Positions 93 to 16,484 of a DNA stretch of 64,000 bases are shown here, piece by piece. The position numbers and the translations under genes are program-made. Within the stretch, counting starts at the first letter, position 1. Each line of letters begins with the position of its first letter. The notes beneath the pieces are model-generated. The model was given only the letters and a program-made list of their open reading frames with translations, was not told the origin of the DNA and made no database searches. The DNA lies in assembly GCA_003577145.1 (NCBI GenBank), contig QEUP01000009.1, forward strand, positions 62,001 to 126,000. The letters run 5' to 3'. The DNA comes from Acidobacteriota bacterium (GTDB lineage Bacteria > Actinomycetota > Acidimicrobiia > Acidimicrobiales > Microtrichaceae).

Positions 93-1088
93 ATGAAGGC
101 GGGAGAGAACTCAGCGACACGGGCAGACACCACGGATCCGGCATTCGACGACGTCGTGATCGACCTTCGTGAGGTCGACCAGGGCAGACGTGACGGCAGC
201 GGCGACGGCGGCTCGAACGGGCGCGGCGACAACGGCCATGGGCGGCTCGCGCAGGGCGGCAAGGGCGCGTTGGTGTTGCAGCTGGCCACCGACACCCGAG
301 ACCTCGAGGCGATAGAAGCCGAGGTTGCCGAAGCGGCTCGCCAATCGACGGACGAAACCACTGAGGTGACCGGTTCTTCGGACGTGGCGGTGGTCGAGCC
401 CGAGGAGACCATCGAAGAGCAGGTTCGGCGCCGTTCCAGGCAAGCGAAGGTGGTCGTCCATCCCAACCCCTCACCGGTGTACCGGTTGTGCAAGAGGGCG
501 CTGGACCTGCTCATAGCAGTGCCGGCTCTCCTGCTCGCCCTGCCCATGATCGCGATCATGTGCCTGATCATCCGCATCGAGTCCCCGGGGCCGGCCATCT
601 TCCGGCAGTACCGGGTAGGCCAGGGCGGCAAGCTGATCAGGTTCTACAAGTTCAGGACCATGTACTCCGACGCCAAGGAGCGGTGGCCCGAGCTGTACGA
701 CTACCGGTTCACCGAGGACGAGCTGGAGAACCTCTACTACAAGAACGAGGTCGATCCCCGCAACACCCGCTTCGGGGCGTGGATCCGCAAGACGACCCTC
801 GACGAGCTGCCGAACCTGTTCAACGTTGTCATAGGCAACGTCAGCCTCGTCGGCCCCCGGCCCGAGCTCGAGGACATGGTCAAGTACTACACGCCCGAGC
901 AGTTGGCCAAGTTCAGTGTGAAGTCGGGCATCACCGGCCTGGCGGCCAGCACCGGGCGGAACAAGCTGACCGTGGTCGAACAGATCACGGCTGATGTCGA
1001 GTACGTGGCCAACCAGTCGATGCTCTTCGACCTGAGGATCATCTTCCGGACCGCCTGGAAGGTCGTCCGTGGGGAGGGCGCCGAGTAG
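93..1088 (+). CDS. Priming sugar-1-phosphate transferase (bacterial sugar transferase family)
   Basis: Membrane enzyme expected to start polysaccharide synthesis by moving a sugar-1-phosphate from a nucleotide sugar to undecaprenyl phosphate. After an acidic, probably disordered N-terminus (about 125 residues) comes a hydrophobic segment (KRALDLLIAVPALLLALPMI), then family motifs YKFRTM, LDELPNLFNVVIGN and SLVGPRPE. ATG at 93 is preferred over an in-frame GTG at 78 because GGCGGGA lies just upstream. It is the first gene of the locus and abuts the next gene at 1089. The N-terminal tail contains DDVVIDLRE, which recurs in the flippase tail. It lacks the long multi-pass N-terminal region of WbaP/CpsE-type enzymes, so it is of the short type. 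The sugar donor cannot be told from the sequence. Confidence 0.9.
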   Translation: MKAGENSATRADTTDPAFDDVVIDLREVDQGRRDGSGDGGSNGRGDNGHGRLAQGGKGALVLQLATDTRDLEAIEAEVAEAARQSTDETTEVTGSSDVAVVEPEETIEEQVRRRSRQAKVVVHPNPSPVYRLCKRALDLLIAVPALLLALPMIAIMCLIIRIESPGPAIFRQYRVGQGGKLIRFYKFRTMYSDAKERWPELYDYRFTEDELENLYYKNEVDPRNTRFGAWIRKTTLDELPNLFNVVIGNVSLVGPRPELEDMVKYYTPEQLAKFSVKSGITGLAASTGRNKLTVVEQITADVEYVANQSMLFDLRIIFRTAWKVVRGEGAE

Positions 1089-2012
1089 ATGCCTCGCCCC
1101 GACCTCACCGTCTGCCTTGTCGCCTACAACTGCCGTGAAGATCTCGTCAGGTGCGCGCGCTCGATCTACGACTCCCTGAAGGAGATCAGCGTCGAGGTCG
1201 TCCTTGCCGACAACGCGTCGAGCGACGACGTGCTCGAGGTCTTCCGTCGCGACTGGCCCCAGGTCCGGTTGGTGGAGATGGGGGAGAATGCCGGCTTCGC
1301 CAAGGCGAACAACGCCGGCATCGAGGTTTCGAGCGGGCGTCACGTCCTGTTGCTGAACCCCGACACGGAGGTGCACCCGGGCGCACTCGACGAGATGGTT
1401 GCTTTCGCAGACGCTCATCCCGGTGCCGGCGCAGTCGCGCCGAGGCTGCTCAATCCCGATCTCACCGACCAGGGCACCGCGCGGGCGTTTCCCACTGCGG
1501 CAGCGGCGCTTTTCGGGCGCCGCTCGCCGCTGACTCGCATGTTCCCCGGTAACCGCTGGTCGAAGAAGTTCCTCATCGGTCTCGAAGCCCGCGGAGAGGC
1601 ACCCTTCGAGGTCGACTGGGTCTCGGGGGCCTGCCTCATGGTGCCGCGTGAGGTCGTCACCGAGGTCGGACCTCTCGACGAGGACTTCTTCATGCACTGG
1701 GAAGATGCCGAATGGTGCCACCGGATCAAGTCGACTGGACGGGGCGTGTGGGCGGTGCCTGGCGCCCAGGTCGTGCACCACGAGGGGGGAAGCCGGAGGG
1801 GCTGGCCGCCCGCGCAGGTCTGGCACTTCCATCACGGCGCTTACCTGTACTGGAAGAAGACGCAAGCTCCCAACCCCCTGAACCCACTTCGGTGGCTCGC
1901 TGGGGCAGCATTGATGGCACGGGCGGCGCTCATCATCGCCCGCGACTCGTTGCTGCGGCGGGTCCGCCGGCCGGCCCCGGAGCCGGTTCCCTCGACGATT
2001 GCGAGTAGGTGA
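1089..2012 (+). CDS. Family 2 glycosyltransferase (rhamnosyltransferase-like)
   Basis: Inverting GT-A glycosyltransferase, probably adding a sugar to the lipid-linked repeat unit on the cytoplasmic face. Visible GT2 features are the N-terminal TVCLVAYNCRE strand, LADNASSDD, GENAGFAKANNAG, the LLNPDTEV metal-binding region and WVSGACLMVPREV, which is typical of WcaE/rhamnosyltransferase-like enzymes. A short hydrophobic stretch near the C-terminus (about 270-290) may associate with the membrane. It begins directly after the priming transferase stop and its TGA overlaps the GTG of the next gene, so it is translationally coupled. It is a clear paralogue of the gene at 10635, which shares the MGENAGF-anchored block. 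Donor and acceptor are unknown. Confidence 0.9.
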   Translation: MPRPDLTVCLVAYNCREDLVRCARSIYDSLKEISVEVVLADNASSDDVLEVFRRDWPQVRLVEMGENAGFAKANNAGIEVSSGRHVLLLNPDTEVHPGALDEMVAFADAHPGAGAVAPRLLNPDLTDQGTARAFPTAAAALFGRRSPLTRMFPGNRWSKKFLIGLEARGEAPFEVDWVSGACLMVPREVVTEVGPLDEDFFMHWEDAEWCHRIKSTGRGVWAVPGAQVVHHEGGSRRGWPPAQVWHFHHGAYLYWKKTQAPNPLNPLRWLAGAALMARAALIIARDSLLRRVRRPAPEPVPSTIASR

Positions 2013-3499
2013 TTCCTGTGGAACCCCATGAGATGTGGGTCGAGATGCGCCGGTACTGGCGCGTGGCCGTGGTGGCGGTCCTCGGCGCGATCCTGGCCTT
2101 CGGGCTGTCGTTCGCTGTGCCGAGGGAATACGAGTCCACCACGATGTTCCTCATCCGCGCCGCGGACACGTCCTACCAGCACACCGACGCGAACCCGCAA
2201 GGCAACCAGTTCATCGATCTCACCTCCGGCCTCACCGTCGGTCAGACCCAGGTCGAGTTGGCAACCTCGCGAACCGTGGCCGAGCAGGTGGTCGACGAGC
2301 TCGACCTGGACGCGCCGGAGAACGACGAGGAGCAAGGGCCGATCGGCAAGGCTCTCGGCCTGGTGACCGGAGGGCTCACCCGCGGGATCGCCTACATCAC
2401 CCATGGGCACTACCGCGAGCCCGATCCGTACGAGAAGGCGGTCGGTGAGGTGCAGGGGAGCCTGGTCGCCGAGGTGCAGCAGAACAGCTGGGTCCTGAAC
2501 CTGAAGTGCTACGCGGGAGAGGCCGAGGAAGCCCAGCAGATCTGCGACACCGCCAGCCAGGTCATCGAGGCGGAGAGTCAGGCCCGCTTCCGGGAGAACG
2601 CCGAGAACCAGGTGGAGTTCCTCACCGAGGAGCTGACGCGCATGTCCAACGAGGTCACGGCTGCGGCCCAGGCGTTGGCCGACTACGAGTCGGAAAACGA
2701 CATCGTGACCGCCAACGACGCGCTCAACAGCCTCGACGCCCAGACCGCCCGGAGCGTGCCCCAGCAAATCCAGGACCTCACGATCGACCTGGCCTCGGAG
2801 CAGGCACGTCTGGCGTCCCTACAGGCGGACTTGGCGGGTACGCCCGAGTTCCAGACCAGCAACCAGCAGATCGTCACGGGCAGATCCTCGACCGATGTCG
2901 AGACGAGCCTCAACAATCCGACCTACAGCAGCCTCCAGAGCCAGATCGACACCACCAACGCGAACATCGCCTCGATCGAAGCCGAGCTGGCCCAGCTGCA
3001 GGGCCTGATGGGTGACCTCACGGTCGAGGACGTCAACAACCAGCAGGTCGAGCTGTTGGGGCTCCAGGCCGATCTCGATGCGGCCAACATCGCCTACCAG
3101 GCCGTGGCCAGCCAGTACGAGCTGGCCGTGGTGGCCGCCAACGGATCCGAGACCCGCTTCGACCTGACGCTCGAGCAGGACCAGCCCACCTTGCCCACCT
3201 ACCCGGCGCGACCTCTGCGCTACCTGTACCTCTTCCTCGGGCTGTTCATCGGGGCTCTGGCGGGCGGCCTGCTGACATGGATGCACAGCCACCGGCCCTT
3301 GTCGACGGACGAGGAAGGCGACGCCGTTGCACCACCGGCGGCCGATGAGATCGATCTCACCGAGATGGAGCCGACCCCGGCGGCGGAGACCCAGCGGATC
3401 GACCTGACGCGCCTCAAGGCGCTCTCGGAACAGGGAGCAGTAGGCGAACCGCCGGGGACGGGCCGTGGCAACGGCGGCGAATCTGACCTCCACGGTTGA
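2009..3499 (+). CDS. Wzz-like polysaccharide co-polymerase / chain-length regulator
   Basis: Likely sets polymer length together with the Wzy-type polymerase. One membrane helix lies near the N-terminus (residues about 15-35), followed by a long Glu/Gln/Ala-rich helical extracytoplasmic domain with coiled-coil character. A proline-rich stretch (PTLPTYPARP) precedes a second membrane helix (about 406-425), which is the Wzz/PCP architecture. No Walker motifs or tyrosine-rich tail follow, so no BY-kinase is fused and none is nearby. The cytoplasmic C-terminal tail carries DEIDLTEM and QRIDLTRLKAL, loosely resembling the VVIDLR peptide of two neighbouring proteins. The GTG start overlaps the preceding stop by 4 bases (GTGA). 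Confidence 0.87.
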   Translation: MIPVEPHEMWVEMRRYWRVAVVAVLGAILAFGLSFAVPREYESTTMFLIRAADTSYQHTDANPQGNQFIDLTSGLTVGQTQVELATSRTVAEQVVDELDLDAPENDEEQGPIGKALGLVTGGLTRGIAYITHGHYREPDPYEKAVGEVQGSLVAEVQQNSWVLNLKCYAGEAEEAQQICDTASQVIEAESQARFRENAENQVEFLTEELTRMSNEVTAAAQALADYESENDIVTANDALNSLDAQTARSVPQQIQDLTIDLASEQARLASLQADLAGTPEFQTSNQQIVTGRSSTDVETSLNNPTYSSLQSQIDTTNANIASIEAELAQLQGLMGDLTVEDVNNQQVELLGLQADLDAANIAYQAVASQYELAVVAANGSETRFDLTLEQDQPTLPTYPARPLRYLYLFLGLFIGALAGGLLTWMHSHRPLSTDEEGDAVAPPAADEIDLTEMEPTPAAETQRIDLTRLKALSEQGAVGEPPGTGRGNGGESDLHG

Positions 3500-3521: not shown

Positions 3522-5366
3522 ATGAGCACGATCGAGCAGCAGCCCGGAGTCGCAGTGGTCGACGGGGACGTCGCCAACAGGGCTGCCGTCAGCACTGGCA
3601 GCGAAGCGGTCAAGACCTTCGTGATGGTCGTGTTCAACGCCGTCACCTGGTTTGCCATCGCCCGCTACCTGGGTGCCGACCAGTTCGGCCAGTACGTCCT
3701 GGTGACGTTCGTGGCCAACTTCGTGTCGCTGATCCCCGCGGCACGGCTCGACAAGCTGGTCGTGCGGGAGATCACCCAGGGCGCCGACGAACGGGAGATC
3801 CTCGGAAACGTCATCGTGGTCCAGCTCGGGCTGGCCCTCGGTGCAACCGCCTTGAACCAGCTCATCCTGCTCGGTATCGGGCTGGCCAAAGGCGAGATCT
3901 CCTGGGCGATCCAGCTCGGTGGCCTGCTGGCGTCGGCGATGTTCTTCACCGACTCGCTGCTGACGGTCTTCGCGGTGTTCCAGGCCAGGTTGAAGTCGCA
4001 GTGGGAGGCGCTGGCCCGGATCGCCTCGGTGACCGTCAAGACGATCATCGTCTTCGCCCTGATCTTCGCCGGTGCACCGATGTGGACCTTCCTGGGGGCG
4101 CTGCCGGCGGGCCAGGTGGTGGCGATATTCGTCGCCTACTACGTCGTCCGGCGCAAGTTCGGCATCTGGCCGCGCTGGACCACCGCGCGCGCAGGCTGGA
4201 TACTCCGCCAGGCGGTGCCCCTGGGCCTGGGCATGCTGCTGGCCATGGGGTGGATGCAGTTCGACACGGTGATGGTGTCGATCATGAGGAGCGACGCGGA
4301 GACCGCTTACTACGGCGGGGTCATGCAGCTGATCCAGTACTCGATGCTGGCAGGCGGGATCATCGCGCTGGTGATGTTCCCGATCCTGTCGGCCCACTGG
4401 GGTCGCGACCACCGGCGATTCGACAACGTCAACCGGGGCACCTTCGACACCGCCTTCGTGGTCTACACGCCCGTGGCGGTCATCCTGTGGTGCATCGACC
4501 TCCCGGCCTTCCTGGAGAAGCTCTACGGCCCCGGATACGGGCAGGCGGCAACGGCCTTTCGGCTGTTGAGCCTCGCGCTCATCTTCATGACGGTTGTGGC
4601 GTGGCAGTCGTTCGTGCTGCTGGCGGCCGACCGCCAGCGCCTCACCGTGTGGGTCAACGCCATGGGTCTGGTGCTGACAGTCGTGATGAACCTCATCTTC
4701 ATCCCGACGTATGGCATCAGCGGTGCCGCCTTTGCATCGGCGATGACCATGTTCACGACCATGGCGGTCGCGCTGGTCGTGACATGGAAGGTCGCCCATA
4801 CCCGCCCGGGGATCGGCCGGCTGGTACGGACGCTGGTGGCCAACGCGCTCCTGCTGGTCGGTCTGTGGCGTCTGGCCGATGTCGGCCTCGGCAACCTCGC
4901 CCTCATAGCGATCGCGGTCCTCGCGTACCTACCGCTCCTGTTGCTCTGCGGCGTGGTGAGGCCGTCGATGCTGGATGTGCTGAGGAAGCGCCCACCTGGT
5001 CCAGAGGAGGAGCAGCGAGCTCCCGGAAGGTTCCTGGGTGAGCTACTGGAGGAGGAAGCCTTGTCCTCGACTACGACATCTGTCCTGAGTCTGCCGGCCG
5101 AGGAGGTGCTCGGTCCCTCGACCCACGACATGGTGCTGGAGATCCTCGCCCGCGTCGGTGCGGACCGGTACCTCAACCCCGAAGCCCGCATGCGTGCCCA
5201 ACTGCTCGCTGCCGGCGCCCGGAGCGCTGAGACCGCAACGACCGACGACGAGGTTGTCATCGACCTGCGGGCCCAGCCGCAGGAGCAGAGCGGTCCGCAG
5301 GAGCAGAGCGGCTCGCAGGGGCAGGGCGGCTCGCAGGAGGAGACCCTGGTGGAGGTGGACGCATGA
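3522..5366 (+). CDS. Polysaccharide flippase, Wzx/MATE-like, with long acidic C-terminal tail
   Basis: Multi-pass membrane protein expected to flip the undecaprenyl-linked repeat unit. The first roughly 490 residues hold about 12-14 hydrophobic segments with Wzx hallmarks: an early YLGADQFGQYVLV segment and a late LIFIPTYGISGAAFASAM segment. The last roughly 120 residues are hydrophilic, including EEEQRAPGRF, a predicted helical STHDMVLEILARVG segment, DDEVVIDLR and a Q/E/S/G-rich repeat. Such a tail is unusual for Wzx. ATG at 3522 is preferred because GGCGGAAG lies 5-12 bases upstream and the gene then starts just after the wzz stop. A GTG at 3465 would overlap that gene. It overlaps the next gene by ATGA. 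Confidence 0.88.
   Translation: MSTIEQQPGVAVVDGDVANRAAVSTGSEAVKTFVMVVFNAVTWFAIARYLGADQFGQYVLVTFVANFVSLIPAARLDKLVVREITQGADEREILGNVIVVQLGLALGATALNQLILLGIGLAKGEISWAIQLGGLLASAMFFTDSLLTVFAVFQARLKSQWEALARIASVTVKTIIVFALIFAGAPMWTFLGALPAGQVVAIFVAYYVVRRKFGIWPRWTTARAGWILRQAVPLGLGMLLAMGWMQFDTVMVSIMRSDAETAYYGGVMQLIQYSMLAGGIIALVMFPILSAHWGRDHRRFDNVNRGTFDTAFVVYTPVAVILWCIDLPAFLEKLYGPGYGQAATAFRLLSLALIFMTVVAWQSFVLLAADRQRLTVWVNAMGLVLTVVMNLIFIPTYGISGAAFASAMTMFTTMAVALVVTWKVAHTRPGIGRLVRTLVANALLLVGLWRLADVGLGNLALIAIAVLAYLPLLLLCGVVRPSMLDVLRKRPPGPEEEQRAPGRFLGELLEEEALSSTTTSVLSLPAEEVLGPSTHDMVLEILARVGADRYLNPEARMRAQLLAAGARSAETATTDDEVVIDLRAQPQEQSGPQEQSGSQGQGGSQEETLVEVDA
5279..5340 (+). repeat. Three tandem 18-bp coding repeats in the flippase tail
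   Basis: Units at 5279-5296, 5297-5314 and 5315-5332, with a partial unit at 5333-5340. Each has the pattern GCAGGAGCAGAGCGGCTC with one to three changes. They encode PQEQSG/SQEQSG/SQGQGG-like hexapeptides at the very end of the flippase. The length is a multiple of three, so copy-number change would lengthen or shorten the tail without a frameshift. Confidence 0.85.
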
Positions 5367-6403
5367 CCGCTGCCCCGGTGGATGTCCACCGCATCCCCGA
5401 TTCGCAGCTTCCCACCTTCTCGGTGATCATTCCCACCTACAACCGGTGTGCCGTCGGCGAGAGGACAATCGACTGCCTGCTGGCATGCGACTACCCGGAC
5501 GACAGGTACGAGCTGATCATCTGCGACAACTCCTCTGACGGCACCCCCGACATGGTCAAGCGCAAGGCCGAGGAGTCGACCGTACCCATCCACCTGCTCT
5601 TCAACGACGAGCGCCTGCCGGCGGTCAAGCGCAACCAGGGTCTGGCCATGGCCGGTGGGGACTACGTCTGCTACATGAACGACGATGTGTGGGTGAGGCC
5701 TTCGTTTCTCAGGGAGCACCTGCGTACCCATCTGCAGTACGCCCCCGAGCCGATCGCTGTGCTCGGACACTGCGAGCAGTCGGGACAGATGCCCGATACC
5801 GCCTACCTGGCGTGGTATCGCCCCTTCGCGTATCACCTCATCGCCGATCAGGCCGACGGGCCGGTTCCGTACCAGTTCAACTGGTCCATGAACCTCTCGC
5901 TGCCCAGGTCGGAGATGCTCGATCGCAACCTGGTCTTTCACGAGGACTGGGCCAACATCGGGCACGAGGACGTCGAGCTGGGCTTCAGGTGGCAGAAGGC
6001 CGGCAACCGGTTGATCTACAACCCGAAGGCCTGGGGTGAGCACTACCACCCCCACACCCTCGACAGCACGTGCGACCTCCAGGTGTCGATCGGTCGTGGC
6101 CTCCGCGATCTCGAAGTGCTCATTCCCGAGCGCGAGCTGGCGGCGACCTACGGGCTGTTCAATTGGTCCAATCCGCGACCTGTGCTGGTCCGCCAGGTGG
6201 CTCGCAAGGCACTCTTCAACAGGTGGACGGCACCGTTCCTGCGTCGGAGGCTTGCCACCTACAACCGGCGCAGCCGCCTGGCCGAGTGGACCTATCCCAA
6301 GATCGTCCTCCACTACATGGAGAAGGGGTACCGGGAGCAGGGCCCGCGCTGCCCCGCTCCCACTCCGATCCAACATCGACCTGCCGAACTAATCGCCTCC
6401 TGA
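5363..6403 (+). CDS. Family 2 glycosyltransferase
   Basis: Cytoplasmic GT-A glycosyltransferase of the polysaccharide locus. It starts with FSVIIPTYNRC, then LIICDNSSDGTPDMV, PAVKRNQGLAMAGGDY and the YMNDDVW acidic motif expected to bind the metal-nucleotide sugar. NIGHEDVELGFRWQKAG supplies the downstream ED acceptor/catalytic-base motif common in chondroitin-synthase-like GT2 enzymes. No membrane helix is obvious. The ATG overlaps the flippase TGA (ATGA) and the stop is followed at once by the ATG of the polymerase fusion, so it sits between flippase and polymerase. It is only distantly related to the GT2 genes at 1089 and 10635. Substrate unknown. Confidence 0.88.
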   Translation: MTAAPVDVHRIPDSQLPTFSVIIPTYNRCAVGERTIDCLLACDYPDDRYELIICDNSSDGTPDMVKRKAEESTVPIHLLFNDERLPAVKRNQGLAMAGGDYVCYMNDDVWVRPSFLREHLRTHLQYAPEPIAVLGHCEQSGQMPDTAYLAWYRPFAYHLIADQADGPVPYQFNWSMNLSLPRSEMLDRNLVFHEDWANIGHEDVELGFRWQKAGNRLIYNPKAWGEHYHPHTLDSTCDLQVSIGRGLRDLEVLIPERELAATYGLFNWSNPRPVLVRQVARKALFNRWTAPFLRRRLATYNRRSRLAEWTYPKIVLHYMEKGYREQGPRCPAPTPIQHRPAELIAS

Positions 6404-9400
6404 ATGATCGTCACTCCGACTCCTACCGAAGAGGTGGCCGGTAGCGACACCGGACAAGCCTCGTCCCGCCGTGCCAGACCGCGCGGCTGGCGCCGGCTGT
6501 GGTCCTGGCTGGTGTTCTGGGCGTTCGCCGGTACCGCGGCGATCCTCGCGTGGGTGTTCGCCTCCGCGGGCATCAAAGGGGTTGTCTTCGCTGTCTTCCT
6601 GATCCTCGTCGGGGTCGCCCTCTACGTCTTCCGTGACTTCGTCCGTTACTGGGTCTTCATGCCTTCTGACGACGTGCCGCCACCTCGCGTCGACGGGTGG
6701 ACCTACGTCCTTCGCCAGGCCATGGCACGCAAGACGCTGCCGTTCCAGGGCAGCGCGGTGGTGATAGCCGCCTTCCTGTCGGCTGTGGCGGCCCTGGTGG
6801 CCACCCAGCTTGGCCTGCTCTGGGTGATCATCGCGTTGGGCCTCGTGAGCGTGCTGACCTTGCTGGTGATCGTGAAGAACCGGACGCTGTTCTTCTTGTT
6901 CGCCGTGTCGGTCTCGATGTGCATCATCTTGTACAAGGCGATCTCCGAGCTGACGCCCAACAGCTACGTCCCTGGCGTCTACATCACGACCTTGGACGTG
7001 ATGCTGATAGTCCTGTACCTGATCTGGATAGCCGAGGGCACCTTCGCACAGGACCTCAAGGAGGGTTTCCAGCAGAAGATCCTCTGGCTCCCGCTGCTGG
7101 TGATGCCACTGGTGTTCATCTCCGCCCTCAATGCGCCAAGCTTCACACTGGTCATGGGCGAGTTCGTGCGCTTCCTCTGGATGTGGGCGCTGTTCGTCTA
7201 CATGGCGGTACGGATCAGGCGCAAGGAGCACATCTGGGCGCTGCTTCTCGGCTGGGGTGTGATCTGCCTGATCGAGGTGCTGGTGACCGGCAGCCAGTAC
7301 GCCACCGGTGGCTTCCTCGGCATCGGCATGTTCGAGGTGAACTTCGATCCTGAAGCACGTCAGTCAGGCCGGCCCTTCGGCACCTTCATACACCCGGTGT
7401 TCCTGGCCACGGTCCAGGGCATGCTGGCCATCATGCTCGGCGCATTCGCCCTGCACCTGCGCAAGGGCACGGTGCTACGCATCCTCGCGCTGGCGTTCGT
7501 GCCGATCGCCCTGACACCGATGTTCTTCTCCATGACGAGGGCTCCGCTGGCCGTGGTTTCGGTGCCCCTCATCGTCCTCATCGTCTGGGCGGTGAGGAAG
7601 CAGTGGTTGTCCATCAAGGTCGTGCTGCTCGTTCTGCTCATCGGCTGCGTCGGTCTGGTCGTGTTCAACCAGCAGGTCGCCGGCGTGTTCGGCACCAACT
7701 TCAGCGGCGGGGAGTTCCGTGAGCAATGGGATGCCAGGTGGGAGACCAACATCGTCGGCTATCGGATGATCAAGGACGAGCCGCTCATCGGGACAGGCAT
7801 CAACAACTTCCAGCGCCACCTCATGGAGTACCTGGAGAACAACCTGCTCTTCTACGGGCACCCATCGCACAACTTCTACATCCTGATGACAGCCGAGTCG
7901 GGCTTCCTGGGGCTGTTCGCGGTGCTGATCATAGGCATCACCTTCTTCGTGCTCGCCATCAGGCTGTCGCGGGTCAAAGACCGCTTCCTCGCCAGCATCG
8001 GGGTGGGCGCAACGGTCGCGTTCGTGTATCTCACACTCGAGGAGATGTTCAGCTTCTCGCTCAAACAGGACATCCCTCTCGCCTTCTACTGGGTCATCTG
8101 CGGTGTCGTCGTGGCCTGCCTGAAGATGGCCGGCGAGGACGGGCCGACCAGGGCCGCCCGGCGGCGTGAGGCGCTCGGCAGTGGTGATGCCGGTGACGGA
8201 TCATCACCGCGCCCACAAGAGAGTGCTGTCGGGTCGGTGCAGGTCGCAGTGCACCCGCGTGCGCCTGCCGGCCCGGTGTCGAACCGCGACCGCCGGCCTG
8301 TGCCGGTTGGTGCGCGAGCGGTTTCCACCGGACGGGACTTCGGGGCGCACGGCCGCGTCCGCTCCTGGGGTGAGCGGGTCACGTTGGGCTTCGATCGCTT
8401 CACCGACATGCTGCTGGCCCCCATCGCTGCGTCGGGCCGGCTCATCGCCTTGGTCGTGAGGGGAACAGCGAGGGTTGTCGCCAAGGGTGCCAGCCGGTTC
8501 ATGTCGTGGTGGGGGTCGGGGCCGGTGCCGGTCGAGAGGCCACCGGAGCCGAGCCTTGCCGCCGGGGGCGGCGGGCGGCTCTCCGGCATCGGGCGGAGGT
8601 TCCGGGGCTTCGGCTGGAAGAAGCCGGCCGCGGCGGGCGTGGTCGTGGCGGTTCTGGCGCTTGCCTCGTCGGTCGTGGCTCAGAGCGGGCCCACCAACAC
8701 CGACGGTATGGAGATGGTCTTCGGAGCCACGCACAAGGGCACGGGTCAATCGGGTATCTACGTGGCAGACGGCAATGGCGGGCACCTCCAGAGGATCACA
8801 CCGGCTGACGGCAGGCGCTACGAGGCACCCGTTTGGTCCCACGGAGGGAACAAGATCGTGTTCAGCTCGGGGGGTGGGGCCGCGCACGAACCGTTGAACC
8901 TCTACCTCATGAACCCCGACGGGTCCGGTGTCGAGCAGATCACCGACGTCGACTGGCAGGTACGGGCGACTGACTCGCTGGACGGGCGCCGCATTCTCGC
9001 CGAGGCCGATGTACCGGGCGTGGGGCAGGGTGTCTACGAGATCGACCTGGACACCCTCGCAATCGTCCCGGTCACGAGCGGCTCGTCTCTCAGCTCCGAT
9101 GGGGGAGGTTCCTACGAAGCTGGGGGCGGCGGCATCGTGTTCGCTAGCCAGGGCGAAGCTGTCCCGAGCCAGCTCTACCGGGTCGGGCTCGACGGCACGG
9201 GCCTGGCGCCCGTCGCTCAGGGCCAGTACGCCAACATCCAACCCGACGTGTCGGCGGAAGGCATGACGGCGTATGCGTCCTTCCGTGGGAGCGATCCGCT
9301 GACGGCCGATATCTCCGAGCCGTCTGGCTCCGCTGACTGGAAGGTCGCGGTGATGGACCCTGAGACCGGTGAGGAGAAACTGCTGGGCGACGGGCGCAGT

Positions 9401-10630
9401 CCCAGGTGGCTGGCCAACGGGGACGCGGTGGCCTACGTCGGCGCGGCGGGTGGTGACGGTGAGTGCATCTGCGTGGCTGCGACTGACGGGTCCGAGGTCA
9501 GATCGGTACTCGATGTCGACGATCTCGTTCTGGGTTCGTTCGACGTGGTCACGCCCGTCGCCTCACCAGCGGGCGCGGTGGCCTCGGTCGGTGCGTCGGA
9601 AGCTCCCTTGGAGTTGCTCGTCAGTGGGGTGAGCAGCACCGGCGAGCCGGTGTTGCGTGCGGTATCGGCCGACGGCTGGCGCAGCATCGACTACGACACG
9701 AACGGCCTCGTCCCCCAGAGCGCCGATTGGAGCGCGGACGGCAGCCGTATCGTCTTCACGGCCGAGGTTCCCTACGATCCAGGCGGCTTCGCCCCGTGGC
9801 CGCCGCCGCCACAGGGACAGGTCAGGCAGACCCACCTGACCATGAGCACCCTGGGCGGGCTCCCGGTCACCAACCGCTACCGTCCCGAGGTCGCCGAGCA
9901 GCAGGTCTTCCTCTGGGAGAACGGCGAGGTCCGCCAACTCACCGATCCATGGATCGAGGACTACATGGACGGCCTCCCGCAGGGTGAAGCCCGAGGTAAC
10001 ATCGATCCCGTCCTTTCCCCCGATGGCCGCTATGTCACGTTCACGAACGTCTCATCGGTCACCAACGAGACTTTCCTCCTCAGATACGACATCGAATCAG
10101 GGCAGGTCTACAGCCTCACGAACGCAACGGCCGGGGCCCAGGGCGTCGATGACAAGACGGCTGCGTATTCACGTGACGGTTCCCGCCTCGCGTTCAGTTG
10201 GACCGAAGGAGGCCAGAACAGCATCTACACGATGTCGGCCGGTGACGGACTCGACGTCGCACCGGTGACGAACAACCAGTTCACCAACCTGTACCCGTCC
10301 TGGTCCCCTGATGGGAAGAGCATCGTGTTCGTGCAGTACCGGGGTTCCATCGAAGAGATCGACGTTAACGCCACGACGATCAGCGAGCTCCCCCTCACCG
10401 ACTGGTACATCGTGAGAGTCGACCTGGCCACCGGTGTGGAGGCGACGCTGACCGGTGCGGGCAACGCTCCCGTCCTCTCCCCGACGGTGTCCGGCGACGG
10501 GAGCCAGATGGCATACGTGGGCCTCTCCGGCGTCACCACGGACATCCTCGTCATGGACACCAGCGACGGTTCCGTACGGCCCCTCGTCTCGACCCCGGAC
10601 GTGCTCGAGACCCACGTTGCCTGGCGGTGA
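6404..10630 (+). CDS. Wzy/WaaL-like O-antigen polymerase fused to an extracytoplasmic TolB-type beta-propeller
   Basis: Single uninterrupted frame of 1408 residues. Residues 1-570 are a polytopic membrane protein with many helices and Wzy/O-antigen-ligase hallmarks: SMTRAPLAVVSVP, LIGTGINNFQRHL and the GHPSHNFYILMTAESGFLGL loop. Residues about 575-735 are a charged, Gly/Pro/Arg-rich linker with an amphipathic part. A further membrane helix (KKPAAAGVVVAVLALASSVV, about 739-758) leads into about 640 residues of PD40/TolB-like repeats such as YPSWSPDGKSIVFVQY and DPVLSPDGRYVTFTN, enough for one propeller of about eight blades or two small ones. Usual Wzy proteins are 400-500 residues. The propeller probably lies outside the membrane and may bind polymer, peptidoglycan or a partner. 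The ATG follows the preceding stop directly. Confidence 0.88.
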   Translation: MIVTPTPTEEVAGSDTGQASSRRARPRGWRRLWSWLVFWAFAGTAAILAWVFASAGIKGVVFAVFLILVGVALYVFRDFVRYWVFMPSDDVPPPRVDGWTYVLRQAMARKTLPFQGSAVVIAAFLSAVAALVATQLGLLWVIIALGLVSVLTLLVIVKNRTLFFLFAVSVSMCIILYKAISELTPNSYVPGVYITTLDVMLIVLYLIWIAEGTFAQDLKEGFQQKILWLPLLVMPLVFISALNAPSFTLVMGEFVRFLWMWALFVYMAVRIRRKEHIWALLLGWGVICLIEVLVTGSQYATGGFLGIGMFEVNFDPEARQSGRPFGTFIHPVFLATVQGMLAIMLGAFALHLRKGTVLRILALAFVPIALTPMFFSMTRAPLAVVSVPLIVLIVWAVRKQWLSIKVVLLVLLIGCVGLVVFNQQVAGVFGTNFSGGEFREQWDARWETNIVGYRMIKDEPLIGTGINNFQRHLMEYLENNLLFYGHPSHNFYILMTAESGFLGLFAVLIIGITFFVLAIRLSRVKDRFLASIGVGATVAFVYLTLEEMFSFSLKQDIPLAFYWVICGVVVACLKMAGEDGPTRAARRREALGSGDAGDGSSPRPQESAVGSVQVAVHPRAPAGPVSNRDRRPVPVGARAVSTGRDFGAHGRVRSWGERVTLGFDRFTDMLLAPIAASGRLIALVVRGTARVVAKGASRFMSWWGSGPVPVERPPEPSLAAGGGGRLSGIGRRFRGFGWKKPAAAGVVVAVLALASSVVAQSGPTNTDGMEMVFGATHKGTGQSGIYVADGNGGHLQRITPADGRRYEAPVWSHGGNKIVFSSGGGAAHEPLNLYLMNPDGSGVEQITDVDWQVRATDSLDGRRILAEADVPGVGQGVYEIDLDTLAIVPVTSGSSLSSDGGGSYEAGGGGIVFASQGEAVPSQLYRVGLDGTGLAPVAQGQYANIQPDVSAEGMTAYASFRGSDPLTADISEPSGSADWKVAVMDPETGEEKLLGDGRSPRWLANGDAVAYVGAAGGDGECICVAATDGSEVRSVLDVDDLVLGSFDVVTPVASPAGAVASVGASEAPLELLVSGVSSTGEPVLRAVSADGWRSIDYDTNGLVPQSADWSADGSRIVFTAEVPYDPGGFAPWPPPPQGQVRQTHLTMSTLGGLPVTNRYRPEVAEQQVFLWENGEVRQLTDPWIEDYMDGLPQGEARGNIDPVLSPDGRYVTFTNVSSVTNETFLLRYDIESGQVYSLTNATAGAQGVDDKTAAYSRDGSRLAFSWTEGGQNSIYTMSAGDGLDVAPVTNNQFTNLYPSWSPDGKSIVFVQYRGSIEEIDVNATTISELPLTDWYIVRVDLATGVEATLTGAGNAPVLSPTVSGDGSQMAYVGLSGVTTDILVMDTSDGSVRPLVSTPDVLETHVAWR

Positions 10631-10634
10631 GCGA

Positions 10635-11576
10635 ATGGCGCATCACGACATCACCACCGTCATCGTCAACTGGAACACCTCGGAGCTGCTCGACGGGGCG
10701 CTGCGAAACCTCGTCGACAACCCCGCCTCCGGTCGCACCAACGAGATCATCGTCGTCGACAACGACTCGTCAGACGACTCGACGCAGATGATGGCGCAGA
10801 ACTGGCCGTCGATACGAGTCATCCAGATGGGGGAGAACGCGGGCTTCTGCCGGGCGAACAACGCCGCCATCAGAGCCAGCGACTCGGACTACGTGCTTCT
10901 CATCAACACCGACGGCCGCCTGTATCCGGGCACGTTCGACGCCATGCTCGGCTACATGGACGCTGATCCCCAGTGCGCCGTGGTCGGACCCCGTCTCGAG
11001 TACGGCGACGGAAGCTTCCAACGCTGGACGGGCGGCGAGCTGCCCGGGCTACGCAGCGTCGCCAACTTCTCGTTCGGGCTGGACAGGCTGGCGAGCCGCA
11101 AACCGTCCTTTGCCGGGGTCTATGCGTCGCATGACTCGACTGCACCGCGACGCTGCGGCTGGGTCAGCAGCGCGGTGATGCTCCTGCGGAGGTCGGCCCT
11201 GGACGACTTCGGTCCCCTCGATGAGGCGATCTTCCTCTACATGGATGATGTCGACCTGTGCCAGAGAGCCGCAGATGCGGGCTGGAACACCTGGTACGCG
11301 GCTGACGCGACCGCCGTTCACTTCATGAGCGCCTCCAGCCGGAAGCAGGTGGGGGCTGTTTCGCCCGAGACAATCCGCAGCGCCATTCGCTGGTACGCAC
11401 GACACAACCCGGGGTTGGAGACGGCGGCGTTTCGTGCCATCCTCGCTACAGGGTTCGGTCTTCGAGGTACGGTCTACCGGATGAGGGCGGCACTGGGTGG
11501 GGACGCAGATGCCGGAGCAATGGCGGAGGCACACTGGACAATGGCAAAGCTCTCCCTGGAGCGGGTCGATGCTTGA
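10635..11576 (+). CDS. Family 2 glycosyltransferase (rhamnosyltransferase-like)
   Basis: GT-A glycosyltransferase starting TTVIVNWNTSELL, with IIVVDNDSSDDS, GENAGFCRANNAAI, LLINTDGRLYPG and CGWVSSAVMLLRR. FLYMDDVDLCQRA is the late acidic motif. ATG at 10635 is chosen because it follows the polymerase stop by four bases with GGTGAG as ribosome-binding site; the frame stays open upstream only inside the polymerase gene. It resembles the GT2 at 1089 closely enough to be a within-locus duplicate. The stop overlaps the start of the methyltransferase by 8 bases. Substrate unknown. Confidence 0.9.
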   Translation: MAHHDITTVIVNWNTSELLDGALRNLVDNPASGRTNEIIVVDNDSSDDSTQMMAQNWPSIRVIQMGENAGFCRANNAAIRASDSDYVLLINTDGRLYPGTFDAMLGYMDADPQCAVVGPRLEYGDGSFQRWTGGELPGLRSVANFSFGLDRLASRKPSFAGVYASHDSTAPRRCGWVSSAVMLLRRSALDDFGPLDEAIFLYMDDVDLCQRAADAGWNTWYAADATAVHFMSASSRKQVGAVSPETIRSAIRWYARHNPGLETAAFRAILATGFGLRGTVYRMRAALGGDADAGAMAEAHWTMAKLSLERVDA

Positions 11577-12402
11577 ACACGCACACGCCCACGATCACGG
11601 GCAGCTCACCCTCGAGGAACGTCACGAGCACGAGGCGGAGACCTACGACGAGTTGGCCAAGCTCTTCCTCGAGCAATGGGGCGAGGAAGAGTATCTACTC
11701 GACCGGGCGACACCCCCGTTCCCGAACAAGGAGCATGTGAGCTTCCTCGGGTACGCGCTCGATCAGATCGGACCTCTCGAAGGGAAGCGCATCCTCGAAG
11801 CTGGTACCGGAACCGGCAACCTGCTGGTGTGGTTTGCGATGAACGGTGCCGAGGTGGTCGGCAACGACGTGTCCGCCGGAGTGATGGAGGTGGCTCGCAA
11901 ACGAGCGAGCATCAACGGGGTGCTCGAAGGGGTTGACTTCGTCCACCAGCCAATCGAGTCGCTGGATCATCCCGCTGGATCGTTCGACGTCGTGTTCGGC
12001 AACGTGGTCGCCCATCACTTCGACGTCGGCCGGGCCGGTCGCAACATCTACCGTCTGCTCAAGCCCGGCGGCGTCGCCGTCTTCAGCGAGCCCGTCCTCT
12101 TCGCCCCCGATTGGGTTTCGAAGCTGCGGACCAGCAGTGCCGTGACCAGGTACTTTCCAGACGTCAAGCACTCTCCGGACGAGAGGGCGTTCAGCCGCAG
12201 GATGCTGACCGAGTTCTCCGAGCCGTTCGACTCGGTGGACCTCAGGTACTTCCAGATCCTGGGTCGTGTGCAGAACTTCGCGCAGGTGTCGGATGAGACC
12301 TGGGCACGCATCGAGAAGGTCGATACCTGGCTGCTGGACCATGTCCCGTGGCTCTACCCGGTCAGTCGCTGGGTGGTCATGACCATGAGGAAGGCCGACT
12401 GA
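11569..12402 (+). CDS. Class I SAM-dependent methyltransferase with His-rich N-terminus
   Basis: Small-molecule or sugar methyltransferase. The Rossmann motif I is ILEAGTGTGNLL, an acidic residue follows in VVGNDVSAGVM, and SFDVVFGNVVAHHF and LLKPGGVAVFSEP are motifs II-III. The first about 20 residues (MLEHAHAHDHGQ and HEHE) are strikingly histidine-rich and could bind metal. ATG at 11569 lies inside the end of the preceding glycosyltransferase and is preferred to in-frame starts further up, because conserved sequence begins here. In this setting it probably O-methylates a sugar of the polysaccharide or its nucleotide precursor. Confidence 0.85.
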   Translation: MLEHAHAHDHGQLTLEERHEHEAETYDELAKLFLEQWGEEEYLLDRATPPFPNKEHVSFLGYALDQIGPLEGKRILEAGTGTGNLLVWFAMNGAEVVGNDVSAGVMEVARKRASINGVLEGVDFVHQPIESLDHPAGSFDVVFGNVVAHHFDVGRAGRNIYRLLKPGGVAVFSEPVLFAPDWVSKLRTSSAVTRYFPDVKHSPDERAFSRRMLTEFSEPFDSVDLRYFQILGRVQNFAQVSDETWARIEKVDTWLLDHVPWLYPVSRWVVMTMRKAD

Positions 12403-12500: not shown

Positions 12501-13448
12501 ATGAAGATGCTCGTGACCGGCGGGGCCGGCATGCTTGGCAGTTCCCTCGTGCCTGCGTTGGTCGGCGCAGGGCACGAATTGACCGTGACCGACATCGATC
12601 TGAGCAACCCGGCGCCCTGGGGTCCCCAGATGCCGGTCATCGGCGAGCTCGACGTGCGCGACCGTTACGCCGTCGCCGACGCGTTCGATCAGGTGAACCC
12701 CGATGCCGTGGTGCACCTTGCGGCCGAGACCTCGCTCGAGTTCTCCGACGACAATCCCGACCACGCATATCTGACCAACACCATCGCCACCAAGTACGTG
12801 ACACTCCAGTGCAAGAAGCACGACGTGCCCCTCACCTACATCAGCACCGCGGGAGTGTTCGACGGCGAGAAGCCGTCGGAGGTGTACACCGAGTACGACC
12901 AGCCGAACCCGCTCAACGTCTACGGCGACTCGAAGTACCGAGGCGAGATCGTAGTTCGGGACTTCCTCGACAAGTTCTACATCATCCGCGCGGGTTGGAT
13001 GGTGGGCGGCGGCCGCACTAAGGATCACAAGTTCGTCGCCCGGATGCTCAACCAGATCCGCGATGGGAAGAAGACCCTGCATGCGGTCGGCGACAAGCTC
13101 GGGACGCCCACCTACACGCCTGACTTCGCTCGCACCTACCTGAATCTCATCGAGAGCGAGCAGTACGGCCTCTACCACATGGCCTGCGAGGGCAAGGGCA
13201 GCAGGTACGACGTCGCCCAGCGCATCCTGGAGGTGCTCGGGCTCCAATCCGACATCGAGCTCATCGAGGTGACCTCGGATTTCTTCGCCGAGCAGTTCCC
13301 TTCGGTGCGCCCGTACTCGGAGATCATGCGCAACATGAACCTCGACCTGCAGGGCATGAACCTGATGCGACCGTGGCAGGTCGCACTCGAGGAGTACCTG
13401 ACCGTCAACTTCGCGGAGTTGATGGCGACCGAGAAGGCCACGGCCTGA
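12501..13448 (+). CDS. RmlD-like NAD(P)-dependent sugar reductase/epimerase (SDR superfamily)
   Basis: Extended short-chain dehydrogenase. MLVTGGAGMLGSSLVPAL is the dinucleotide-binding loop, VVHLAAETSLE follows, YISTAGVFDG carries the Ser/Thr of the active site and NPLNVYGDSKYRGE the Tyr-x3-Lys pair. The overall pattern and length (315 residues) fit dTDP-4-dehydrorhamnose reductase-like proteins. No rmlA, rmlB or rmlC is in the window, so the exact substrate is inferred from family only. The purple-AT promoter island upstream and an excellent ribosome-binding site suggest it starts a second transcription unit of the locus. A 33-base gap separates it from the RGP-like gene. Confidence 0.82.
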   Translation: MKMLVTGGAGMLGSSLVPALVGAGHELTVTDIDLSNPAPWGPQMPVIGELDVRDRYAVADAFDQVNPDAVVHLAAETSLEFSDDNPDHAYLTNTIATKYVTLQCKKHDVPLTYISTAGVFDGEKPSEVYTEYDQPNPLNVYGDSKYRGEIVVRDFLDKFYIIRAGWMVGGGRTKDHKFVARMLNQIRDGKKTLHAVGDKLGTPTYTPDFARTYLNLIESEQYGLYHMACEGKGSRYDVAQRILEVLGLQSDIELIEVTSDFFAEQFPSVRPYSEIMRNMNLDLQGMNLMRPWQVALEEYLTVNFAELMATEKATA

Positions 13449-13481: not shown

Positions 13482-14558
13482 ATGGCCGACAAGGCTAAGG
13501 ACGACCGCAAGGTGGCGGTGGTGATCCCCATCCCGAACGATCCCCCGTGGGAGCTGTTCGACGCCATTCCGACGGAGATCCCGATCATCGTGGCCGACGA
13601 CAGCGACGGTCAGCTCGCACCGCCGCCGCGGGAGAACGTCCACTACTTCGACTATGCCGCGCAGGAGGCCTACTGCGGGAGGCACTATGCCGCGATGCCC
13701 CACAAGTCGGCGGCGAGCCGCAACTTCGGTCACTACTACGCCTACAAGGAGGGCTACGACGTCATCATCGCCCTCGACTACGACTGCGGAACCAGGTCTG
13801 GATGGCTCGAGACCCACCTCGAATGCCTGACCACCGTCACCGACGCCCCCGCTCTGGAGCCCAAGGTCGAGAACGGTTGGGTCAACTCCATAGAGGCCGA
13901 GGGCTTCTACGCCCGCGGCTACCCTTACGAGTTCCGCACACCCGAGCTGGCCGAGGTCCGGGAGACCACGGCGTCGGGCGAGGTGAAGATCAACATGGGT
14001 GTCTGGGACAACATCCTCGACTTGAACGGGGTCGACAAGTTCCAGGCTGAGCCACCTTACGACCCCGGCTTGCGAGGCGATCAGAACTTCGTCTCCCTGG
14101 GCAACATCCCGGTCTGTGGCATGAACACCGCCTTCACCGCAGATCTGACCCCCGCCTACTACTTCCTGCCCGACATGTGGGTGAACGACGGGTCCCCCGG
14201 CAGTTGGCATCTCAGCCGCCACGACGACATCTGGGGTGGGTATGTCGTGAAGAAGCTGATGGACGTGCGCGGTGACCTCTTCACGTTCGGGCGGCCGGTC
14301 GTCGAGCACACGAAGCAGACCAAGCTCGAGCGGGTAGCGGTCCTCGAGCAGTACATGCACCTCATGTCCGTGCCGTTCTATGACATCGTCGACGAGGCGG
14401 TTGCCGAGCTGGAGCCATCCGACTACGCAGCCATGTACGCTCACTTCGTGGAGGAGTACCAGCGCCGAGTGGAGAAGAGCCCGGCCCCGCCTCATTTCAA
14501 GGCGGTGTACGAGGGCCTCGGCGAGTGGATGGAGCGCTGGGCCCAGGCCTTCGTATGA
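13482..14558 (+). CDS. RGP-like protein (reversibly glycosylated polypeptide / UDP-arabinopyranose mutase family)
   Basis: 358 residues matching, from memory, the plant RGP/UAM (GT75, Pfam RGP) pattern along most of its length. IIALDYDCGTR (residues 95-105) corresponds to the DxD loop, YARGYPYEFR (143-152) to the plant VRGYPFSLR block, INMGVWDNILDLN to the HGLWLNIPDYD region, and PVCGMNTAF plus RHDDIWGGYVVKK to CGMNLAF and RYDDMWAGWCVK. Arg145 and Arg152 keep the seven-residue spacing of the two arginines reported as essential in rice UAM. Plant enzymes interconvert UDP-arabinopyranose and UDP-arabinofuranose. Here it may supply a furanose donor or act as a glycosyltransferase. It overlaps the next gene by ATGA. 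Confidence 0.82.
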   Translation: MADKAKDDRKVAVVIPIPNDPPWELFDAIPTEIPIIVADDSDGQLAPPPRENVHYFDYAAQEAYCGRHYAAMPHKSAASRNFGHYYAYKEGYDVIIALDYDCGTRSGWLETHLECLTTVTDAPALEPKVENGWVNSIEAEGFYARGYPYEFRTPELAEVRETTASGEVKINMGVWDNILDLNGVDKFQAEPPYDPGLRGDQNFVSLGNIPVCGMNTAFTADLTPAYYFLPDMWVNDGSPGSWHLSRHDDIWGGYVVKKLMDVRGDLFTFGRPVVEHTKQTKLERVAVLEQYMHLMSVPFYDIVDEAVAELEPSDYAAMYAHFVEEYQRRVEKSPAPPHFKAVYEGLGEWMERWAQAFV

Positions 14559-15331
14559 GCGACTATGACCAGTTCCTCGGGCATCCGCCCGAGGAGAAGG
14601 ACGTGAAGTTCTGGCCGCTCTGGAAATCCGACATCCTGCGCCTCGGCGAAGCGTTCGGGTTCGATTTCGAGAAGATGGGCGTCAAGGAGAAGATCGCTGG
14701 ACTCGCCCACCTCCTGACGATTCCCGGCGTCCTGGCCGTCGGGCTCTTCCGCGTGGCCAGCGCGCTCAACGCTCGCGGCGGCTTCTTCAAGATCTTCTCC
14801 AGGCTCGTCTACCTGGCGAACTACATCCTCTTCGGTACCGAGATGGCGCCCAGTGCCCGCGTGGGGCCCGGGCTCGTGGTTCCCCACCCGATGGGAGTGG
14901 GGATCGGCCACGGGGTCCGCATGGGTAGCCGTGTGAGCGTGTTCCGCTTCGTAGGCATCGGTGGCTCCCCGAAGCTCGGTTCGACCGGCAAGGGTGGGCT
15001 CCCCGTCATCGGCGACGACGTGTGGCTCATGGACAGCTCTGCGGTTGCCGGCGGTGTGACGATCCACAACAAGGTCATCGTGGGGGCCAAGGCAGCGGTG
15101 AACAGGGATGTACCGCCGGGAACCTTCGTGTTCCCACCCCGCCCGTACCGCAAGTTCGTGCCCCTCAACAAGGTGATCCCCCGCCGTGTCCTCGATGCAG
15201 GAGTCGAGTCCGCTTTCGTGAAGGATCACGAGGCCGCGCAGCGGCGCCGGCGCCTCGAAGAGCCGCCCTCGGCGAACGGGGATTCTGCCTCGGCCGCCGA
15301 GGCTGCCAACGCCACCGGCACGATTCCGTGA
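14555..15331 (+). CDS. Hexapeptide-repeat acetyltransferase (serine acetyltransferase/WcaB-like)
   Basis: Left-handed beta-helix acyltransferase of 258 residues. After a helical N-terminus (about 90 residues), hexapeptide-type turns run from GPGLVVPHPMGVGIGHGVRM through PVIGDDVWLMDSSAVAGG to VIVGAKAAVNRDVPPG. The HPMGVGIG segment carries the catalytic-type histidine seen in serine acetyltransferase relatives. A Pro/Arg-rich end (FPPRPYRKF) and an Ala/Glu-rich tail follow. No cysteine pathway gene is nearby, so O-acetylation of the polysaccharide is more likely than serine acetylation. ATG at 14555 overlaps the previous stop (ATGA). Confidence 0.82.
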   Translation: MSDYDQFLGHPPEEKDVKFWPLWKSDILRLGEAFGFDFEKMGVKEKIAGLAHLLTIPGVLAVGLFRVASALNARGGFFKIFSRLVYLANYILFGTEMAPSARVGPGLVVPHPMGVGIGHGVRMGSRVSVFRFVGIGGSPKLGSTGKGGLPVIGDDVWLMDSSAVAGGVTIHNKVIVGAKAAVNRDVPPGTFVFPPRPYRKFVPLNKVIPRRVLDAGVESAFVKDHEAAQRRRRLEEPPSANGDSASAAEAANATGTIP

Positions 15332-15344: not shown

Positions 15345-16484
15345 ATGCGGGTCGCTGTCGATGCCCACACCCTCGGGTCCGGGCAGGGTGGGGACGAGAC
15401 GATGCTCGGGGGGGTCCTCGTCGGCCTCAGCGAGACCAAAGCCCCTGAGGACGTCTTCCCGCTTTTCGTCGCGTCCGACGGTGTGCTCCCCGAGGCGGTA
15501 GCCGGCAGGTCGGACTTCCCGGTTGTGCAGCGGATGCAACGGCTGCCGGGTGTCGCCCATTTCCCGGTTCGCATGCCATGGCTCCTCTACCGGAACCGGC
15601 GAGCGCTGGCTGCCGAGCTGATCTTCGCGGTCAACCACGGTCCGGTGGTCTCGCCCGTACCGGTCGTGCTCATGATCCAGGACCTCTCGTTCTTCCATCG
15701 GCCGGACTTCTACCCCTTGACGGACCGCATTCGGTTGAACCAGGTCATGCGTCGCCAAGCCCTCAGAGCGCGAGCTGTGGCAACCGTGAGCGAGTTTTGC
15801 CGCAACGACATCATCGAAACCTTCGGGGTGGCCGGCGATCGGGTCTTCACCATTCCCAACGCCATCACCGAACCGCCCCCTTTCGACGAGGCCGACCGGG
15901 CCGCCGGCACCCGCTGGTTGAAGGAGAAGGGCGTTGACGGGCCGTTCGTCCTGTACCTGGGCAATCTCCATCCCAGGAAGAACCTGCCCAGGCTCATCCG
16001 CGCGTTCCTCCGGGCGAAGGACCATGACAGCGTCCTCGAGGACTGCAAGCTGGTCATCGCAGGAGCCAGATGGTGGGGTGAGGGCGCAGAGGAGAGGGCG
16101 GCGACAGAACGTCCCGACGAGATAGTCCTTCTCGGCAGGATCTCGGCGCTAGAGCGTGAATGGTGCATGCGGCTGGCCACCGCCATGGCCTATGTCTCGT
16201 TGTTCGAGGGATTCGGACTGCCGCCTCTCGAGGCGATGATCAGGGGTACGCCCGTGCTCACCTCAAACGTGACATCGCTGCCAGAGGTCACCGGTGAGGC
16301 CTCCCTCCAGGTGGATCCCCTCGACGAGGATGCGATCGCCGACGGGCTGATCAAGGTGGTAAGCGACGAGGTCCTGCGCAGCGACCTGATCGACAGAGGG
16401 CTAGACCAGGCGCGCACATTCAACACTCGGCGCACGGGTGAGGCGGCCATGCGCGCATTTCACGCCGCTGTCGCACTCAACTGA
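15345..16484 (+). CDS. Family 4 (GT-B) glycosyltransferase
   Basis: Retaining GT-B glycosyltransferase related to mannosyl- and rhamnosyltransferases of surface polysaccharide loci. The C-terminal half has the nucleotide-sugar-binding signature: [20 protein letters not shown], then [20 protein letters not shown] with the E-x7-E motif, and [15 protein letters not shown]. The N-terminal half has [22 protein letters not shown] at 15345 follows a TTG at 15342 that could also serve; both lie right after the AGGG of the motif at 15326-15341. Sugar specificity unknown. Confidence 0.88.

Follow-up and report, generated by a model that had tools for sequence, protein, structure and literature searches.

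A Wzy-type polymerase and a TolB-like propeller region in a single reading frame of an actinobacterial surface-polysaccharide cluster

The window analysed here is a stretch of 64,000 nucleotides (contig QEUP01000009.1, positions 62,001 to 126,000, assembly GCA_003577145.1) from a bacterium deposited as Acidobacteriota and placed by the Genome Taxonomy Database in the Actinomycetota, family Microtrichaceae. Its plus strand carries, between positions 93 and 20992, a surface-polysaccharide cluster with an initiating transferase, a Wzz-type co-polymerase, a Wzx-type flippase, glycosyltransferases, a propeller lipoprotein and a gene in which a Wzy-type polymerase is fused to a propeller region. The fusion gene (6404-10630) is a single ATG-started open reading frame (ORF) of 1408 amino acids (aa) with no internal stop, and the window is free of N. 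The two profiles for which the initial annotation proposed a check, Wzy_C and PD40, both match this one protein, with E-values of 1.4e-15 and 1.5e-21, respectively.

Each of the 22 blocks of 64 codons that make up the ORF has a proportion of G and C at third codon positions (GC3) of 0.69 to 0.97. Around the junction of the two halves, codon scores were compared in six frames over intervals of 40 codons. No frame is favoured in the intervals starting at residues 581 and 601, the ORF frame is barely favoured at 621, and from residue 641 on the ORF outscores the other two forward frames. In the intervals starting at residues 681 and 701, one antisense frame scores slightly above the ORF (0.13 and 0.16 versus 0.06 and 0.08). 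Residues 581-640 of the linker are codon-uninformative; on either side of them codon usage speaks for the ORF frame. Between residues 570 and 769 there is no in-frame start with a well-placed ribosome-binding motif, a weak test because several genuine starts in the cluster, that of the fusion gene included, also lack the motif. A frameshift or a missed stop was considered and is not supported by the six-frame codon scores together with the internal-start scan. The fusion is real in the present assembly, and rare; the unbroken frame of 1408 residues initially annotated, with a Wzy-like domain and propeller repeats, is thus confirmed.

If a true stop in the early linker were missing from the assembly through a consensus error, the halves would be separate genes. 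The polymerases of two relatives (genomes and loci are cited below by G and L numbers), G017 and G837, end 38 and 33 residues past their last helix, which corresponds to the codon-neutral stretch, and in this cluster the lack of a ribosome-binding motif counts for little. However, the halves share a frame, so that one substitution and not an insertion or deletion would be needed, and already from residue 641, before the propeller starts, no other forward frame scores as well as the ORF. Such an error is the least probable of the explanations considered here, and we give it very little weight.

The first 575 residues contain 16 hydrophobic segments, judged by hydropathy. Pfam Wzy_C (PF04932) matches residues 369-507 (positions 7508-7924) at 57.8 bits against a cut-off of 31.7. 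In an alignment of four sequences, those of the window, G017, G819 and G837, R379 and H489-N490...E498-x-G500 are common to all. We take these conserved Arg and His-Asn...Glu-x-Gly positions to be catalytic in Wzy-type polymerases, and the fused polymerase looks active because they are conserved in all four sequences. The fusion is the sole Wzy_C match on its contig, which favours a predicted polymerase rather than ligase activity. The structure model of this half has low confidence, with a predicted local distance difference test (pLDDT) value of 41.6.

The polymerase domain is followed by the linker and the extra membrane helix that had been annotated, here a basic region and a hydrophobic segment (residues 741-759). 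The linker stretches 576-666 and 686-740 hold 26 Lys or Arg residues against 12 Asp or Glu, and a weak hydrophobic stretch lies between them at residues 667-685. To judge by its charge, the linker is probably cytoplasmic. The succession of basic linker, hydrophobic segment and soluble repeats fits an order of cytoplasm, membrane and outside, again by charge. The segment is preceded by RRFRGFGWKK and ends with SSVVA before QSG (VVA/QS); its sequence is compatible both with a membrane anchor and with a cleaved signal.

As an internal signal peptide, the segment would be cleaved after VVA (residue 759), and one frame would yield a Wzy polymerase and a free secreted propeller, mature products that resemble the parts encoded by relatives as separate genes. 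Signal peptidase sites follow the -3,-1 rule, and the segment offers RRFRGFGWKK as a basic n-region, a hydrophobic stretch of 19 residues and SSVVA/QS with V at -3 and A at -1. Propellers are separate genes in relatives, and the anchor of a 471 aa propeller of G017 differs in that it runs into QLKKD without a signal-peptide-like c-region. On the other hand, internal signal peptides behind multi-span proteins are unusual in bacteria, and the cluster already has a propeller of the lipoprotein type, so that a free one is not obviously needed. Cleavage into two proteins is the main rival to the role that we propose below, and we think it rather unlikely.

The repeats that follow the segment match Pfam PD40 (PF07676) at 76.2 bits, against a gathering score of 20.9, the best stretch being residues 1287-1314. 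The TolB model TIGR02800 of NCBIfam reaches 131 bits in three stretches, under its cut-off of 343, and 12 of the 13 matches among solved structures are TolB chains, within residues 1201-1317. With a profile built on 13 blades from other genomes, nine stretches are recognised between residues 767 and 1390, two with negative scores, in agreement with the roughly 640 residues of TolB/PD40 repeats first noticed. The region probably consists of two tandem propellers, because its first half aligns with its second at 30% over 163 residues (E = 6e-9). The model of the region is composed mostly of strands, but its confidence is low (pLDDT 38.6, predicted template modelling score 0.30). No carbohydrate-binding family is present among the Pfam and NCBIfam matches of the fusion. 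TolB propellers are protein-docking modules, and TolB relatives bind proteins. No Tol genes were found among the scanned neighbours, a genome-wide Tol search not having been made. The genome has no Omp85 match, which is consistent with a single-membrane cell.

The genes of the cluster and the parts of the fusion are listed in Table 1. The second propeller lipoprotein that had been placed in the same locus is indeed there, near the downstream end of the cluster.

Table 1. Genes of the surface-polysaccharide cluster and parts of the fusion protein
Feature	Positions	Strand	Basis or remark
Initiating sugar-phosphate transferase (Bac_transf)	93-1088	+	
Family 2 glycosyltransferase	1089-2012	+	
Wzz-type co-polymerase	2033-3499	+	
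Wzx-type flippase (Polysacc_synt)	3522-5366	+	
Family 2 glycosyltransferase, 5' neighbour of the fusion	5363-6403	+	
wzy-propeller fusion gene, 1408 aa	6404-10630	+	ORF, Pfam, codon scores
Wzy polymerase membrane domain, residues 1-575	6404-8128	+	Pfam, hydropathy, alignment
Basic linker, residues 576-740 (165 residues)	8129-8623	+	Charge count
Hydrophobic segment, residues 741-759: membrane anchor or internal signal peptide	8624-8680	+	Hydropathy, sequence
Propeller region, residues 760-1408, PD40/TolB-like	8681-10627	+	Pfam, NCBIfam, blade profile
Family 2 glycosyltransferase, 3' neighbour of the fusion	10635-11576	+	
Methyltransferase	11569-12402	+	
RmlD/epimerase family sugar-nucleotide enzyme	12501-13448	+	
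RGP-like protein (reversibly glycosylated polypeptide family)	13482-14558	+	
Hexapeptide acetyltransferase-like protein	14555-15331	+	All NCBIfam matches under cut-off
Family 1 glycosyltransferase	15345-16484	+	
Possible hexapeptide protein	16516-16998	+	Match under curated cut-off
Methyltransferase-like protein	17021-17794	+	
Methyltransferase	17791-18819	+	
Propeller lipoprotein, 386 aa, ATASC lipoprotein-type N-terminus, Cys26	18927-20087	+	PD40 E 2.3e-10
284 aa protein	20138-20992	+	No Pfam/NCBIfam match; strong match in G837 cluster, E 1.5e-96

The polymerase half is rare. When the whole fusion protein was compared with 61 genomes, the polymerase part was matched only in G017 (contig JAFDWA010000746.1, Actinomycetota bacterium isolate SZAS-1) and in its own genome; the alignment to G017 ran just past the TGA that ends the G017 polymerase frame. 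Matches to the polymerase half, its own included, were found in 1 of 298 genomes of the order (itself), 4 of 396 of the phylum and 4 of 213 of the class, three samples that overlap. Of two scans of genome contigs with peptide patterns, the first found none and the second only the G017 contig. The closer relatives are G017 of the host family (37-38% identity) and two members of the same class, G819 (35%) and G837 (31%), followed by the remote G508 (28%), G536 (26%), G745 (25%) and G575 (24%). G819 has the gene order of the window: transferase, family 2 glycosyltransferase (GT2), Wzz, Wzx, GT2, Wzy. The G837 cluster runs transferase, RmlD-like, GT2, Wzx, GT2, Wzy, GT2 and downstream genes, with no match to Wzz, and that of G017 runs transferase, GT2, Wzz, Wzy, GT2, RmlD-like, with no match to Wzx on its 9.6 kb. 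The search for the same domain order in relatives, suggested by the initial annotation, returned none that is fused, and the contig of G819 stops within the linker. The G819 frame (L148 11590-13506, plus strand) stays open and looks coding for 87 residues past the last helix to the contig end, with a GC3 of 0.90-0.92. It enters a basic, repetitive linker and may be a second fusion.

Propeller genes are present in the clusters of two of these relatives. The G017 contig has two, one of 398 aa that is lipoprotein-like and one of 471 aa that is anchored by an N-terminal hydrophobic segment, an arrangement that corresponds topologically to the fused propeller, but without the fusion. G837 has one (L150 5900-7347, plus strand). 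The latter is preceded, in another frame, by surface-type repeats of the kind GYWLVASDGGIFAFGDAAFHGS, an arrangement that is either two genes or a frameshift. The window lipoprotein aligns at 38% with the G837 propeller (E = 7e-51), at 37% with the shorter G017 propeller (398 aa; E = 3e-43) and at 32% with a propeller of G260 (E = 6e-40). The G260 propeller has glycosyltransferase matches within about 10 kb; the sugar-nucleotide enzymes there were named by eye only. In G575 (L067 1-3978, minus strand) a propeller-like frame (PD40 E 1.5e-4) with N-terminal hydrophobic segments directly follows a Wzy_C-TPR gene on the same strand, and the same contig holds the Wzy relative of this genome. Because propeller genes lie near wzy in the G017 and G837 clusters, the association is wider than one frame.

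PD40 is sparse in the genome of the window. A search with PF07676 at E-values up to 0.01 found four PD40 frames and missed the lipoprotein, so that there are at least five, two of them in the cluster. Relatives of the lipoprotein occur in 28 of the 298 genomes of the order, its own included. Another match to cluster genes of the window was found in three (L103, L108 and L114) of the 19 fetched loci of such relatives (20 stretches, two of them from G260). L114 was not counted, as it has unrelated genes in between, and neither was L107, where Wzy_C and PD40 are about 4 kb apart with genes of the other strand between them. With 3 of 19 loci only, a general link between propellers and polysaccharide genes was dismissed; the association is with the present cluster type, not with propellers at large.

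To gauge the rarity of the fusion, 40 further Wzy_C loci were examined, all of them taken from the matches listed and with frames at least about 900 aa long. They comprise 19 other rows among the order matches listed, 25 others of 80 family matches, 8 of which are already among the 19, and four listed for the phylum; the family list (33 genomes) is complete. Frames were delimited by stop codons at both ends, which in some cases adds upstream residues to the length. In none of these loci does any frame longer than 150 aa contain a PD40 blade, whereas the blade profile used scores the window protein at E = 4e-28. No described Wzy-propeller fusion was found in the open-licence literature searched either, in agreement with the earlier statement that none was known; this is weak evidence of absence. 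The Wzy-propeller fusion is an apparent singleton.

In the same set, 23 of the 40 loci have a Wzc-like region, three have a Wzx flippase, and in 14 the extra part is unassigned. In 7 of these 14, Pfam was run and found Wzy_C only. The 23 Wzc-like cases belong to the host family: of its 33 genomes, 23 encode another Wzy_C protein whose C-terminal part, about 450-500 aa long, is the Wzc-like region. Since the Wzy_C fusion partners that could be identified are members of the pathway, the propeller is likely, though not certain, to be a working partner of the polymerase.

The Wzc-like loci are L052 (2483-5782, minus strand), L053, L055-L058, L062 and L124-L139. The end of the L052 protein matches BY-kinases (NCBIfam, residues 918-1086), its best solved match being BceF (E = 2.8e-4). 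A Wzz-like membrane part in front of the kinase-like end was recognized by eye only, and Pfam gives no Wzz. The Walker A motif is absent from the eight proteins checked of the 23. Proteins of this type may be polymerases fused to a co-polymerase and a pseudokinase. A Wzx-type flippase and Wzy_C share a frame in L044 (3417-7190, plus strand), L141 (3871-6900, minus strand) and L142 (3035-6043, minus strand), in both orders. L123 (3381-6140, minus strand) resembles these fusions by eye, and Pfam finds only Wzy_C in it.

To our knowledge, it is poorly understood how single-membrane bacteria pass a completed Wzy polymer on from the membrane to their wall or surface. The role that we consider most likely, tentatively and with somewhat less than even confidence, is docking on the extracytoplasmic side, by a module that is tethered to the polymerase. 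The protein would be the Wzy-type polymerase of a Wzx/Wzy-dependent cell-surface polysaccharide, which would polymerise lipid-linked repeat units at the extracytoplasmic face. Beyond this domain the chain would run through a cytoplasmic linker and cross the membrane once more, placing the TolB-like propeller region of about 640 residues outside. Propellers tethered beside the exit could form a protein-docking platform, which might keep the lipoprotein of the cluster, its Wzz or a wall-attachment enzyme close to the elongating polymer. The topology, the lasting attachment and the docking of proteins rather than glycans are all inferred. The domain order, the intact frame, the cluster context, the polymerase signature and the propeller genes in the clusters of two relatives speak for this role.

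Several observations weigh against docking at the polymerase. No relative has the same fusion, and both readable relatives, G017 and G837, stop at a TGA without a propeller. The initial annotation had held that halves always encoded separately in relatives would refute its observation; the unfused polymerases of these two count on that side, and the propeller genes near wzy in the same clusters count on the other. Segment 741-759 also resembles a cleavable signal peptide, and once cleaved, the propeller would not stay attached. Similarity between the fused propeller and the cluster lipoprotein (E = 1.7e-4) or the G017 propeller of 398 aa (E = 2e-9) is of a generic kind only, and the 471 aa propeller is not matched at E = 1e-3, so that the fused propeller is at most a putative counterpart of these proteins. 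No blade match was found in the fetched stretches of G819, whose contig ends in wzy, G745, G536 and G508. The Wzy_C gene beside the remote relative in G575 carries TPR, and this gene together with the 14 of 40 loci whose extra part is unassigned means that fusions are not always to pathway partners.

The propeller might instead bind the nascent polysaccharide, helping to set chain length or retaining polymer at the surface. It would sit where the polymer emerges. According to PMC10030265, Wzy and Wzz of Pectobacterium form a complex and Wzy activity is regulated by its partner Wzz. For lipobox proteins that carry propellers and other domains, the comparative study PMC12419801 predicts binding of carbohydrates or other ligands; the passages of it that were searched describe no Wzy-propeller fusion. 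Against glycan binding stand the lack of a carbohydrate-binding family among the Pfam and NCBIfam matches and the fact that the cluster has a Wzz of its own. The protein-binding habit of TolB relatives points the same way. We regard glycan binding as unlikely.

A chance fusion of neighbouring genes in one lineage, recently fixed or neutral, would have joined the halves without any special role. The count of 0 blade-bearing loci out of 40 and the unfused polymerases of the readable relatives agree with such an event, and part of the linker looks like an unconstrained tail. Against it, the frame has no stop along the 165 residues of the linker, the position of the hydrophobic segment suits export of the propeller, and two relatives have propeller genes in their clusters as well. 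We regard a chance fusion as quite improbable.

A wider proposal, which we put forward with more reserve than docking in the fusion itself, is that extracytoplasmic PD40 propellers, as lipoproteins, anchored proteins or parts fused to Wzy, could be an undescribed accessory of one class of Wzx/Wzy polysaccharide machines in Actinomycetota, a docking platform at the polymerase exit that passes the polymer on. If they are such an accessory part, the fusion identifies Wzy as their site of action. As a fusion made by nature, the gene suggests that the polymerase has a physical partner, for which the cluster's own propeller lipoprotein is a testable candidate.

The polymerase half resembles the Wzy/WaaL/PglL superfamily (PF04932) in its multiple membrane spans, Wzy_C domain, conserved Arg and His-Asn...Glu residues and location in a cluster with Wzx, Wzz and an initiating transferase, but differs from it by the C-terminal linker, the extra hydrophobic segment and the TolB-like propeller region. 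The repeats match the blades of TolB/PD40 propellers (TIGR02800, PF07676), whereas the protein scores far under the TolB cut-off, has no match to the TolB N-terminal domain and is fused to a polymerase. Like the fusion, the Wzy_C protein with C-terminal TPR of L067 (1900-3978) combines a polymerase or ligase and a C-terminal interaction repeat in one chain; unlike it, the repeat is TPR and the propeller-like frame follows as a separate gene. LpqB has a propeller domain. According to PMC10714768, the actinobacterial MtrB-LpqB pair is like the present cluster in that the lipoprotein gene adjoins that of the membrane protein it serves, and unlike it in that LpqB is paired with a sensor kinase and not with a polymerase, and is unfused.

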